DNA of 64,000 nt from Paucisalibacillus globulus (lineage in GTDB: Bacteria > Bacillota > Bacilli > Bacillales > Amphibacillaceae), in contig NZ_LT855405.1 in the NCBI RefSeq assembly GCF_900184735.1, positions 124,001 to 188,000 of the forward strand, in the 5' to 3' direction. The translations under genes and the position numbers were made by a program. The notes beneath the pieces were generated by a model that saw only the letters and a program-made list of their open reading frames with translations, had not been told where the DNA came from and searched no databases. This document shows, piece after piece, positions 8,300 through 60,103 of the stretch (positions are counted from its first letter, which is position 1; each line of letters begins with the position of its first letter).

Positions 8300-9301
8300 T
8301 TAACTGGATGTACGAATAATTAGTTTTGGTTCAAAACGAAATATCTCCTCACTTGGACTCGTTTTGTTTTTGATTTTCTCAAATAAAAGATTGGCTGCTT
8401 TCGTTCCCATTTCAAAAGCTGGTTGAGCGATCGATGTAATGGTTGGATAGTAAATATTTGCAAAGGGTACATCATCTATTGCAACTAGAGCCAAGTCTTC
8501 TGGAATTCGTATCCCTTGTTGTTTCGTATACTTAAGTACTTCATATAAAGTCAAGTCATTTCCTGCTATAATTGCGTTAGGAGGTTCAGGTAATGTCAAC
8601 ATTTCTTTAAGTCCCTCTTGCATCCCTTGAACTTCTACACTCCTGATATATTCCGGATAAAAGGTTAGCCCATTTTCTTGTAAAGCACTTTTATATCCTT
8701 CAATACGCTCTTTCCGAGGTGTAATACTTTCAGCTTTTTCCGGCATCATTACCCCAATCCGGTCATATCCCTTACTTACTAATTCATCCACAGCAAGTGT
8801 AGCCGCTTTCACATTATCTAATAAGATAGCACTTGCCTTAATCCCCGGAACATGACGGTCAACAAAGACGATTGGAAAATTCTCTTTAATCATTTGTTGA
8901 TAAGACTGGACGTTACTACCTGTTGGAAAAATAATAATTCCATCAACTTGTTTAGCTCGAAGCATATCAATGTATTTTTTTTCTTTTTCAGGATCGTCAT
9001 CTGCATTACAGAGAATGACATGGAAATCTTGCTGATTGCAAAAATCCTCGATAGCACGGATGACTTGGGTTGAAAATACATGTAGTATGTTCGCCGTAAT
9101 GACCCCAATGGTTGTAGTCGACTTTTGCTTTAAACTTCTAGCAATATAATTTGGATGATAACCTAGTTCATCAATTGCCTGTTCTATCTTTTTTTTCGTC
9201 TTATCAGCCATATAATCATAACGTTTATTTAAATACTGGGAAACGGTACTTTTGGAAACCCCAGCCTGCCTTGCTACATCTGTGATTGTCACCGTTTTCA
9301 T
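8300..9301 (-). CDS. kdgR: LacI-family transcriptional regulator, KdgR-like
   Basis: 333 aa. The N-terminus has the LacI helix-turn-helix (TITDVARQAGVSKSTVSQYL) and hinge, followed by a periplasmic-binding-protein-like effector domain. First gene of the operon and therefore probably autoregulating. I take ATG 9301 (AGGAG 11 nt upstream) as the start; an upstream in-frame ATG at 9331 would put codons into the operator array. Expected effector by analogy with B. subtilis KdgR is 2-keto-3-deoxygluconate. Confidence 0.85.
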   Translation of the reverse strand: MKTVTITDVARQAGVSKSTVSQYLNKRYDYMADKTKKKIEQAIDELGYHPNYIARSLKQKSTTTIGVITANILHVFSTQVIRAIEDFCNQQDFHVILCNADDDPEKEKKYIDMLRAKQVDGIIIFPTGSNVQSYQQMIKENFPIVFVDRHVPGIKASAILLDNVKAATLAVDELVSKGYDRIGVMMPEKAESITPRKERIEGYKSALQENGLTFYPEYIRSVEVQGMQEGLKEMLTLPEPPNAIIAGNDLTLYEVLKYTKQQGIRIPEDLALVAIDDVPFANIYYPTITSIAQPAFEMGTKAANLLFEKIKNKTSPSEEIFRFEPKLIIRTSS

Positions 9302-9331
9302 AACTTCTATTACTCCTACGCGGTTTATCAC

Positions 9332-9369
9332 TAAACCGATTTACTAAACCGGTTTACTAAACCGATTTA
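9332..9369 (-). promoter_or_regulatory. Three tandem LacI-type operators for the kdg operon
   Basis: Three 12-bp palindromes of the form TAAACCGRTTTA occupy 9332-9343, 9345-9356 (perfect TAAACCGGTTTA) and 9358-9369, exactly 13 bp apart, with a further half-site CGGTTTA at 9321-9327. They overlap and follow the predicted transcription start. The central CG palindrome is typical of LacI-family regulators, so KdgR is the likely ligand. Confidence 0.75.
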
Positions 9370-9374
9370 GTGTA

Positions 9375-9403
9375 AGTATAAAACAAATGTAAACGCTTTA
9401 CAA
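9375..9403 (-). promoter_or_regulatory. Sigma-A promoter of the kdg operon
   Basis: On the minus strand TTGTAA (9403-9398) and TATACT (9380-9375) are 17 bp apart. The expected start site falls at the first operator. Confidence 0.65.
9387..9403. promoter_or_regulatory. Catabolite-responsive element (cre) for CcpA
   Basis: ATGTAAACGCTTTACAA fits the Bacillus cre consensus WTGNAARCGNWWWNCAW at every position. It lies between the -35 and -10 boxes of the kdg promoter, a position expected to give CcpA repression when preferred sugars are available. Confidence 0.8.
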
Positions 9404-9497
9404 TAGTTTTTTTTATTTTTTTATTTCGTTTTATTTTTTCAAATTTACACTTACACTATTGGTATCGATAACTCAAGAAAGCGGATACTTAATAATC

Positions 9498-9526
9498 TTG
9501 ACAAAATCATCTCCACATGCGATAAT
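9498..9526 (+). promoter_or_regulatory. Strong sigma-A promoter for a structured RNA
   Basis: TTGACA (9498-9503), a 17-bp spacer and GATAAT (9521-9526). Transcription should begin near 9533. The preceding 9404-9497 is T-rich with no other element seen. Confidence 0.75.
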
Positions 9527-9532
9527 CATAAA

Positions 9533-9868
9533 GTTACCTAAAGTAACATACGAATCTGGCAGTCTACAATGTTTTTGTTGATGCTTATTCACACTGGCGC
9601 GACTAAGGGGTCGCAAGGACGTAAGAGAAGGTTGGGCTTGCGTTGCTTAAGTTAGAAGACATCGGATTAATTTCAGTAACTTCCTTTCACCACTGAGATC
9701 GGAATGATATTAATCAAGGTGGAAAGTTTACCGCGGTTAAAGTGAAATTCTAGAAAGAACTCGGGAAGCGTTACCGAGATAACAACTTTTGATAAATAAA
9801 ATTAATTTGAATTTCCCACCCGAATTATATCGGGATATATATAAACGATGTGTTACTTTAGAAATATA
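9533..9868 (+). ncRNA. Uncharacterised structured RNA or leader upstream of cvfB
   Basis: No credible reading frame exists here. CTAAAGTAACA (9538-9548) pairs perfectly over 11 bp with TGTTACTTTAG (9851-9861), closing a domain of about 325 nt. Inside are GCGAC/GTCGC (9599-9614), CGCAAG/CTTGCG, GATTAAT/ATTAATC (9665-9671 with 9710-9716) enclosing TCAGT/ACTGA, CTCGG/CCGAG (about 9760-9777) and CCCGA/TCGGG (about 9819-9834). The first bases can also form a local hairpin GTTAC/GTAAC that competes with the closing helix. A promoter lies just upstream and a terminator-like hairpin just downstream. I recognise no match to RNase P, tmRNA, SRP RNA, glmS, lysine, c-di-AMP or cobalamin RNAs. Confidence 0.55.
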
Positions 9869-9900
9869 AGGGGTACCCTAAATACTAGGGTATCCCTTTT
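9869..9900 (+). terminator. Terminator-like hairpin between the structured RNA and cvfB
   Basis: GGGGTACCCTA and TAGGGTATCCC pair around AATAC, followed by CTTTTCC. It lies after the closing helix of the RNA and 28 nt before the cvfB start, so it could end an independent RNA or act as an attenuator. Confidence 0.7.
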
Positions 9901-9927
9901 CCAATACATAAGAAATGAGGGTTAAGT

Positions 9928-10776
9928 ATGAACGAATTAGGTACAATTCAATCGATGTCAGTTGATCGTAAAATTGATAATGGATATGTGTTAAAAAAGG
10001 ATACAACAGAAGCATTACTTCATTATAATGAGGCTGATGGTGAGTTAGAGATTGAACAGGAAGTTGACGTGTTTTTATACCAAGATAAAAAAGGAAATTT
10101 AACAGCTACTATGAAACTCCCTAATGCGATGATGGATCACTATGGTTGGGGAACAGTTGTGAATGTACTTCCGCACTTAGGAGCATTTGTAGACATTGGA
10201 ACTACAAAAGAATTCTTAGTTTCCAAAGATGATTTACCATTATTTGAAGATGTTTGGCCAAAAGAAAATGATATGCTTTATGTAACATTAGGCAAGGATC
10301 GCAAAGGTAGACTACTTGCTATCCCTGCTACTGAAGGCGTCATTGCTCGAGAAATTGAACTTGCTCCTGATTCTTTATTAAATCAAACCGTTTCCGGACG
10401 CGTTTACCATACGAGCAGGGAAGGTACTGCAATCATTTCAGATGAGAATTATCGCGGATTTATTCACCATACTGAAAGAAAAACAGAGCCCCGTTTAGGC
10501 GAGCTAGTCCAAGGCCGAGTTATAGAAGTTAAATATGACGGGACATTAAATATTTCCCTTCGTCCATTAAAGCAACACGGTATGGTTGAGGATTCGGATA
10601 TGATATTAGAACATTTAGAAGATCATGATGGGATGATACCTTTTAGTGATAAAAGCGACCCTGAAGATATCCGCGGAACATTTAATATAAGTAAGGCCGC
10701 ATTTAAACGGGCTTTAGGGAAACTGATGAAAGAAGGAAAAATCGAGCAGCGTGATGGAAATACGTATTTAAAATAA
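9928..10776 (+). CDS. cvfB: CvfB-family S1-domain RNA-binding protein
   Basis: 282 aa, the length of CvfB/YitL. Successive S1-like beta-barrels (around residues 65-125 and 145-215) are followed by a C-terminal winged helix (about 225-280, ending in FNISKAAFKRALGKLMKEGKI). In Staphylococcus CvfB affects virulence gene expression and binds RNA; the biochemical role in bacilli is open. ATGAGGG precedes the ATG. It follows a structured leader, so its own expression may depend on an RNA switch. A terminator follows. Confidence 0.85.
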   Translation: MNELGTIQSMSVDRKIDNGYVLKKDTTEALLHYNEADGELEIEQEVDVFLYQDKKGNLTATMKLPNAMMDHYGWGTVVNVLPHLGAFVDIGTTKEFLVSKDDLPLFEDVWPKENDMLYVTLGKDRKGRLLAIPATEGVIAREIELAPDSLLNQTVSGRVYHTSREGTAIISDENYRGFIHHTERKTEPRLGELVQGRVIEVKYDGTLNISLRPLKQHGMVEDSDMILEHLEDHDGMIPFSDKSDPEDIRGTFNISKAAFKRALGKLMKEGKIEQRDGNTYLK

Positions 10777-10857: not shown

Positions 10858-11154
10858 TTATGCCTTTGCTTTATCATCATGGACTTGATATGCATGACTA
10901 ATACTAGTCACTAAGAAACTGATACCAGCAGCGAATAGGCATGCAATTCCCCATCCACCTAGTCCAGCTTCCCAAATCATGATCTTCTGTGGAGTAGCTG
11001 CGCAAACAACGATGATACCGCCAAAGAATAGAATAGCACTTGGGAAATATGCTAAATAACCATTGCCACCCGAAGCTTTCAAGAAAATAAATCCTAAGAT
11101 AATAGCTACTACTGCTAAGACGGCAGCTATTGTTATAACCGCTTGAACTAACAT
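10858..11154 (-). CDS. Small membrane protein, function unknown
   Basis: 98 aa with three hydrophobic helices (about 4-26, 33-52, 64-85) and a short charged C-terminus. The GAGGTG site ahead of the ATG and codon use support a real gene. It is transcribed alone, convergent with cvfB. I do not recognise the family. Confidence 0.7.
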   Translation of the reverse strand: MLVQAVITIAAVLAVVAIILGFIFLKASGGNGYLAYFPSAILFFGGIIVVCAATPQKIMIWEAGLGGWGIACLFAAGISFLVTSISHAYQVHDDKAKA

Positions 11155-12611: not shown

Positions 12612-13063
12612 CTTGTGAACTTGGGGGTGCACCTTGTGACCGCGGATGGGAATCTTGGGACCATTGGAGTACACCTTGTGACCGCGGATGGGATACTTGT
12701 GACCATGGGACTGCATCTTGTAACCGCAGATGGGAATCTTGGGACCATTGGAGTACACCTTGTGACCTTGGATGGGATACTTGTGACCGCGGATGGGAAT
12801 CTTGTGACCATTGGAGTACACCTTGTGACCTTGGATGGGATACTTGTGACCATGGGCGTGCACCTTGTGACCGCGGATGGGATACTTGTACCCATTGGAG
12901 TGGACCTTGTGACCTTGAATGGGTTACTTGTGCCCATGGGCGTGCACCTTGTGTCCTTAATTGAGAACCTTGAGCCCGGGGTGAAACACCTTGTACCCTT
13001 AATTGAGAACCTTGAGCCCGAGTGAAACACCTTGTACCCTTAGTTGAGAACCTTGGGCCCGGG
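12612..13063. repeat. 21-bp minisatellite, about 22 units
   Basis: Units start with CTTG and alternate between two types, e.g. CTTGTGACCGCGGATGGGA(TA) and CTTGGGACCATTGGAGTA(CAC), so there is also a 42-bp period. All full units are 21 bp except one of 20 bp at 13011-13030; the last five diverge toward CTTGTACCC(T)TAATTGAGAAC. Because 21 is a multiple of three, several frames on both strands stay open (heptapeptides such as LVTADGN or GHKYPIR), but they start in a terminator or lack a ribosome binding site. The array fills the gap between the symporter and pepF. GC content is clearly above the surroundings. Confidence 0.93.
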
Positions 13064-59773: not shown

Positions 59774-60103
59774 CTATTCTGCATTTTAATCTGGCTCCTC
59801 CGTTAAAATGTAGATTAGGACTCTTCTATTCTGCATTTCAACCTGCTTGCTCTACTGAAATGAGGATTAGAGTACTTCTATTCTGCATTTCATACTGCTT
59901 ACTCTACTGAAATGAGGATTAGAGCACTTCTATTCTGCTTTTCAACTTGCTTGCTTCTCTGAAATGAAGATTAGAGCACTTCTATTCTGCATTTCAACTT
60001 GCTTGCCTCTCTTGAAATGAAGATTAGAGCACTTCTATTCTGCATTACATACTGCTCTTCTCCCCAAAATGAAGATTAGAGCACTCCTATTCTGCATTTC
60101 AAC
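59774..60103. repeat. 52-bp tandem repeat array, about 6.5 units, each hairpin-forming
   Basis: Units start CTATTCTGCATTTCA and end GATTAGAGCACTT; each contains CATTTCA/TGAAATG, able to form a stem with a 16-nt loop. Units run from 59774, the first one diverged (CATTTTA/TAAAATG, where both arms changed together), and the last is incomplete at about 60103. The array separates the convergent NERD and lhgO genes. No frame of note runs through it. Confidence 0.85.

Follow-up and report, generated by a model that had tools for sequence, protein, structure and literature searches.

A BsrC-type RNA ahead of cvfB

The gene-free interval upstream of cvfB in Paucisalibacillus globulus almost certainly encodes an RNA of the BsrC family that is transcribed from the plus strand, as judged from comparative sequence analysis. 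We analyzed a window of 64,000 nucleotides (contig NZ_LT855405.1), in which the single match to Rfam release 15 at curated cut-offs is RF01410 (BsrC), with 73.2 bits against a cut-off of 38. The match lies at 9569–9656 on the minus strand (model positions 1–87), antisense to the RNA. The initial annotation of this DNA could place the RNA in no known class, a statement that does not hold given RF01410, and it had named a clean Rfam match as a possible refutation of its reading; the match is indeed well above the cut-off, but it is antisense and spans only 88 of about 370 nt. It gives a family name yet does not describe the whole RNA. The BsrC class is already known, bsrC reportedly having been described by Saito et al. 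in Gene in 2009; new here are the full-length form, the breadth of its distribution and its gene neighborhood.

The interval separates a LacI-type regulator gene (8300–9331, minus strand) from cvfB (9928–10776, plus strand), and the open-reading-frame list contains no frame of at least 60 amino acids in 9332–9927, in agreement with the gene-free stretch described initially. The consensus promoter reported there is also present: a sigma-A type site (TTGACA-17-GATAAT, 9498–9526, plus strand) has its −35 element at 9498–9503 and its −10 element at 9521–9526, matches the consensus at 11 of 12 positions with a 17-nt spacer, and carries a TG ahead of the −10. We infer that transcription starts near 9533 and that the RNA, about 370 nt long, ends near 9901 (9533–9901, plus strand), the feature being recognized by the Rfam match, the fold, the alignment and a sense-strand model. 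It is the only copy in its genome. The plus strand of 9530–9900 folds at −102.3 kcal/mol, whereas shuffled sequences average −80.5 (z −3.72), and none of 100 dinucleotide shuffles folds as well, which rejects a chance fold and agrees with the several internal helices that had been proposed. Three 13-bp direct repeats (ACTAAACCGATTT, 9330–9369) are spread over the start of the divergent LacI-type regulator gene and the DNA immediately ahead of it, and may be operators of the regulator itself.

Predicted fold of the core

The core is predicted to form a small junction of three helices, all on the plus strand. Helix A pairs GCUUA (9583–9587) with UAAGU (9648–9652) and, in the alignment, has 90.5% of its cells paired, with changes on both sides at five of five pairs. 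Hairpin P3 (GCGAC-UAAGGG-GUCGC, 9599–9614) is paired in 94.4% of cells and hairpin P4 (9618–9644) in 97.2%. The P4 loop is purine-rich and nearly invariant; it reads AGAAGGUUGGG in the window and most commonly AGAGAGGUAGGG in the family. These values come from an alignment (A2) of the 93 distinct cores that remained from 98 loci once identical cores were dropped. Overall, 94.6% of its 1674 cells pair and 17 of the 18 pairs show both-side changes. The covariation score is 0.556; shuffled alignments give 0.253, with none of 500 reaching the observed value, and slid versions of the structure give no more than 0.134. Nearly identical helices were returned unaided by RNAalifold on 56 sequences (A1), with double changes in 16 of 18 pairs. 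Covariation in relatives had been set as a check at the outset, and the proposal of a structured RNA with its own plus-strand promoter and conserved helices stands up to it. Aligning 56 loci in a single step over 460 nt gave 1200 columns and a result that was usable within the close set of relatives only, and core alignments were substituted. Two loci (L058 and L059) were missed by the first nhmmer search and recovered with a later profile.

A covariance model of the sense-strand core (R1) gives 84.6 bits in the window, which is a training member. It detects 13 of 13 further loci at 71–90 bits, although ten of these come from six genomes and some of the cores resemble or equal training cores. 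Three copies located between ydaG- and amj-type genes score 73.5 bits with R1, and carry the variant CACCGG, which is absent from the alignment.

Closing helix, 3′ domain and terminator

The layout beyond the core differs among the 159 loci. In 57 (type A) a CCGCGG lies 82–149 nt past the core start, 95 are without it and seven are unclear. The window copy is of type A, with a closing helix (P1), the hallmark palindrome ACCGCGGU (9730–9737, plus strand; from the alignment and layout scan) and a 3′ domain.

The initial annotation had joined the two ends of the RNA by an 11-bp helix, and the pairing of CTAAAGTAACA (9538–9548) with TGTTACTTTAG (9851–9861) is exact. It falls inside the best 5′/3′ helix of the window copy, with z 4.3 and p 0.02 (the minimum attainable with 60 shuffles). 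On the combined evidence of the sequence, a strict helix search and a P1 pattern search, the P1 strands are placed at 9538–9550 and 9849–9861 (plus strand). The close set comprises 25 of the 37 loci in family f1, the window included. In 24 of these P1 is recognizable by the pattern search, with at least seven unbroken pairs in 23; L037 fails. The pattern requires GUAAC- and GUUAC-like motifs, so that five P1 pairs are fixed by the search itself, and the pairs beyond these five are mostly conserved and show no covariation. The strict search reaches significance at 15 of 24 close loci and at five of 32 other type-A loci, a group that includes further f1 members. Three of those five (L017, L126 and L159) are P1-like and the remaining two are unlike P1; altered yet paired versions of P1 occur in these three and, at p 0.07, in L051. 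Duplex energies between 5′ and 3′ regions are lower for matched than for mismatched ends (means −23.0 and −21.6, permutation p 0.002), but the pairing often lies away from P1 and the measure is too permissive to demonstrate it. A local 5′ hairpin that could compete (GUUAC-CUAAA-GUAAC, 9533–9547, plus strand) exists in the window as annotated, and a loose pattern for it is present in 21 of the 25 close loci, the window counted. This hairpin and P1 use a common strand, so alternative pairing is possible, and the 5′ end could switch between the two.

A conserved single strand, CACACUGG (9590–9597, plus strand), may form a pseudoknot with a downstream CCAG(G)UGG. Three of the 59 loci scanned were without the motif, and among the remaining 56 type-A loci the pairing reaches p ≤ 0.05 in 31. 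In the window the proposed partner, CAAGGUGG (9715–9722, plus strand), is imperfect and the signal weak (p 0.51). Since CACACUGG hardly varies, the case for this pseudoknot rests on conservation. Within the 3′ domain, GAAAUUC (9744–9750) is complementary to GAAUUUC (9809–9815), both on the plus strand and both identified from the sequence and the alignment.

The terminator-like hairpin that had been noted just ahead of cvfB was located at about 9868–9898, where AAGGGGTACCCT pairs with AGGGTATCCCTT and is followed by the tail TTTTCCAAT, which falls short of a full U tract; the hairpin is absent from the output of the strict terminator scan. Together with its conserved tail UUUUCCAAU, the element extends over 9868–9905 (plus strand). 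A scan of 97 loci found an end hairpin with a UUYCYAAU-like tail in 38 (28 of family f1; nine families), compared with seven of 485 shuffles and five of 284 control windows. The hairpin sequence varies freely, and the tail is conserved.

Strand of the RNA and of the Rfam model

Several lines of evidence favor the plus strand. The best promoter-like site scores at least 10 of 13 in 57 of 97 loci in the sense direction and in five of 97 antisense, with 6% of mononucleotide shuffles reaching this score. Rule-based terminators occur in 38 of 94 loci in sense, 11 of 94 in antisense and five of 94 when shuffled. Across the three core helices of A2 there are 1375 Watson-Crick, 208 G-U, 10 A-C and 81 other cells, so that 94.6% of cells pair when read as plus and 82.7% when read as minus, a comparison that is somewhat biased toward plus because the structure was derived from that strand.

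The bsrC locus itself points the same way. Bacillus spizizenii has two copies of the RNA, one of which (L169) lies between a ydaG-like gene for a PNPOx protein and a gene for an Amj protein, as assigned with Pfam, and runs in the same direction as both. This copy is outside the R1 training set and scores 73.5 bits. We take the two flanking genes to be ydaG and ydaH, the Amj-protein gene being the latter. In B. subtilis, bsrC was mapped between ydaG and ydaH (PMC2784878, PMC3574147), and strand-specific arrays joined the bsrC segment to the upstream gene (PMC2784878), which on our reading is ydaG. Elsewhere, a 322-nt BsrC transcript was found by RNA-seq in Paenibacillus riograndensis (PMC5670726), and dRNA-seq of B. 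amyloliquefaciens FZB42 did not detect BsrC, for which the authors point to growth phase (PMC4634765). BSGatlas groups BsrC with toxin-antitoxin small RNAs and has an Rfam BsrC match between cspC and ydeB (PMC8208703).

Because promoters, terminators, pairing and the bsrC locus all favor the plus strand, RF01410 would model the complement of the core. The window RNA is homologous to it across all 87 model positions; the Rfam model, however, is antisense and restricted to the core, whereas the window copy is of type A and stands ahead of cvfB. The Rfam entry therefore seems to be an antisense fragment, 87 nt long, from an RNA of roughly 300–400 nt. That the model is correctly oriented and the minus strand is the one transcribed, a reading favored by the model alone, is extremely improbable, and we rejected it on these four grounds. 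Annotations based on RF01410 would carry the wrong strand, and work trusting that strand would study the wrong RNA; the corrected strand and fold make it possible to design suitable probes and mutants.

Distribution and gene neighborhood

RF01410 matches 56 of 61 genomes of relatives, the window's own included, and R1 adds one more (G057), giving 57. In a sample of the class Bacilli, 123 of 250 genomes have a match, with up to three copies per genome. Among 25 genomes that are blank with RF01410, R1 picks up two. A sample of 249 genomes across the phylum gave matches in nine, each labeled as own, same order or same class, and none labeled outside the class. BLAST of 9530–9870 found no match among phages and one 72-nt match among plasmids, on a 2.7-Mb Paenibacillus replicon; these two collections thus give no indication that the RNA is mobile. 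A structured RNA that is widespread in Bacilli, including the model organism B. subtilis, and has no known role is worth explaining.

Neighboring genes were scored by tblastn within 1 kb at 98 loci, which comprise all 58 matches from relatives and 40 from the class sample that were picked for family diversity before neighbors were inspected; at six of them the sequence extends for less than 1 kb on one side. Genes for cold-shock proteins (csp) occur at 17 loci in 14 of 41 families, cvfB at 23, the CarD-like ydeB at six and DEAD-box helicases at three. At least one of csp, cvfB and a DEAD-box helicase is near the RNA at 41 loci, and none of the three at 57. From csp density (69 matches across 21 genomes, most of them close relatives), about 0.2% of positions would fall within this distance of a csp, so that 0.2 loci would be expected where 17 were found, although the families have common ancestry and are not independent. 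No locus of family f1, the window included, has a csp nearby, and the three csp genes of the window's genome are on other contigs. In one locus of another family (L005, f9) a csp is nearby and cvfB is 1.16 kb away on the opposite strand. The order csp-RNA-helicase on one strand occurs in L132 and in L105, from a MAG, and csp-RNA-CarD-helicase on one strand in L143, which was checked with Pfam, unlike the other two. At 61 additional loci, obtained with a search pattern that favored the ydeB/csp type over the cvfB type, ydeB lies within 1 kb in 45, csp in 18 and cvfB in none.

In eight of the 17 csp-linked loci the RNA precedes csp by no more than 300 nt and has the same orientation, and a hairpin separates the two in all seven of these that were inspected by eye. 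A similar hairpin with a right arm ending in about AUAUGUGAAUUUUUAUUU was seen by eye between core and csp in L010, L021, L044, L072, L130, L140 and L156; it may be a terminator of the RNA or a csp leader element. The E. coli cspA thermosensor, or cold box, is a csp leader RNA. BsrC resembles such leaders, and the csp boxes of B. subtilis, in that it adjoins csp in 14 of 41 families, but it differs in often having its own promoter and hairpin end and in lying on either side of csp or on the opposite strand. The cspA family is not among the matches to 9300–10000 up to E 5. Cold-shock boxes have been described for csp genes of B. subtilis (PMC8307031). The occurrence of the RNA beside many different genes argues that it is a free-standing RNA gene.

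Relation to cvfB

The cvfB gene of the window encodes S1-type domains (Pfam S1_2, CvfB_1st, CvfB_2nd and CvfB_WH); the CvfB protein of B. subtilis is YitL. All 23 loci with cvfB within 1 kb belong to f1, where they make up 23 of the 37 loci. In this family cvfB starts a median of 31 nt past the last terminator-like tail and, at 20 of 23 loci, 27–62 nt past it; L015, L022 and L042 have a longer spacer between cvfB and the hairpin that belongs to the RNA. A promoter-like site (score of at least 10) between core and cvfB occurs in one of 23 f1 loci, compared with 10% of shuffles. Given the short spacer and the lack of a standout promoter, cvfB is probably transcribed by read-through, and the RNA of f1 probably doubles as its leader. 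The feedback of CvfB on its own RNA that had been suggested initially is conceivable for f1, but not elsewhere.

Within the window, a gene on the minus strand and convergent to cvfB (10858–11154) encodes a 98-amino-acid protein without a Pfam or NCBIfam match. By eye, similar open reading frames were seen downstream of cvfB at many loci of f1; L055, which has no cvfB match, has one after the RNA.

Proposed function and alternatives

By sequence comparison, the locus almost certainly specifies a free-standing, highly structured plus-strand RNA of about 370 nt, transcribed from a sigma-A promoter, closed by P1 and ended by the terminator hairpin. Judging from this anatomy, some polymerases in f1 would probably terminate at the hairpin, which frees the RNA, and the remainder would continue into cvfB. 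Conserved unpaired stretches (CACACUGG, the AGAGAGGUAGGG loop and the U run) could bind or titrate Csp and CvfB, and such titration would tie the supply of RNA chaperones to RNA state. The gene neighborhood is what suggests, tentatively, a structured partner of cold-shock-type single-strand RNA-binding proteins (Csp, CvfB), and it offers a concrete hypothesis that can be tested. The proposal draws on the finding that loss of CspB and CspD alters terminator read-through in B. subtilis, with responses reported for the manR-manP, liaH-liaG and pyr terminators (PMC8307031), and on a table of small RNAs enriched with Hfq whose first row is bsrC, at 53.6-fold (PMC3574147), although strand information was lost in those data and the bsrC peak is not in itself strand-resolved. 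Counting against it are the 57 loci with none of the three genes nearby and the lack of csp near any f1 locus, and the link of bsrC may instead be to Hfq. For the explanation as a whole, with a free-standing BsrC RNA that acts as cvfB leader in f1 and as partner of Csp or CvfB, we consider the chances to be even. A broader and speculative version, which we regard as rather improbable, is that BsrC serves the cold-shock machinery throughout the class Bacilli as its RNA arm, derived from an old csp-RNA-ydeB-helicase cluster. It would bind and titrate cold-shock-domain and S1 proteins, set terminator read-through and, in f1, meter cvfB directly, and would have been overlooked because its only catalogue entry is antisense and truncated. 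The excerpts of the BsrC literature that we searched assign it no function.

A purely cis-acting cvfB leader, or riboswitch-like attenuator in which a ligand or CvfB alters the 5′ fold and the terminator, would account for the position of the terminator ahead of cvfB, for the competing 5′ hairpin in the close loci and for conserved unpaired core nucleotides that resemble an aptamer. It is unlikely, and was rejected as the sole role, because the RNA is not consistently upstream of cvfB: 75 of the 98 loci lie elsewhere, as do all of the additional loci (found with a pattern favoring another type), and two members of the close set, L049 and L055, carry the RNA in 5-kb loci that yield no cvfB match. 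Away from cvfB the core is often equipped with a promoter and a hairpin of its own, beside neighbors that are unrelated or on the opposite strand. The main rival is a base-pairing regulatory RNA, in which Hfq and the G-rich P4 loop would bind C-rich sites in mRNAs. The Hfq table and the near invariance of the loop speak for this reading, but the Hfq peak has the strand limitation given above, and we consider it possible though doubtful; co-occurrence with hfq, which could be counted in its favor, is uninformative because 61 of 61 relatives have that gene. A Shine-Dalgarno mimic formed by the G-rich loop was considered by eye and set aside.

CsrA binds AAGGA motifs, and CsrB and RsmY are sponge RNAs that sequester such proteins. 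Most members of the BsrC family have AAGGA beside hairpins, a likeness to the GGA motifs close to hairpins in those sponges, and csrA is found in 59 of 61 relatives. However, the RNA occurs in both genomes without a CsrA match, G016 (a single contig, matched by RF01410 at L037) and G057 (a weaker R1 match of 37.8 bits), one GGA is at the base of the P4 stem, and members of the window's clade have GGG in place of the P3-loop GGA. We therefore rejected a CsrB-type CsrA-sequestering RNA as very unlikely. Among other large RNAs, OLE is likewise a conserved structured RNA of Bacillota that is not known to have a settled role. The OLE and raiA-motif families are not among the matches to 9300–10000 up to E 5. 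To our knowledge, raiA-motif RNA is also large, conserved and structured in Bacillota, with no settled role.

Other repeats

An array of units of about 21 bp (with periods of 42, 63 and 84 bp as well) occupies 12612–13063, flanked by genes for a transporter and an M3 peptidase, and is open in several frames on both strands. A 52-bp tandem repeat is present in about six copies at 59774–60103. In L049, a repetitive open reading frame directly follows the BsrC RNA.
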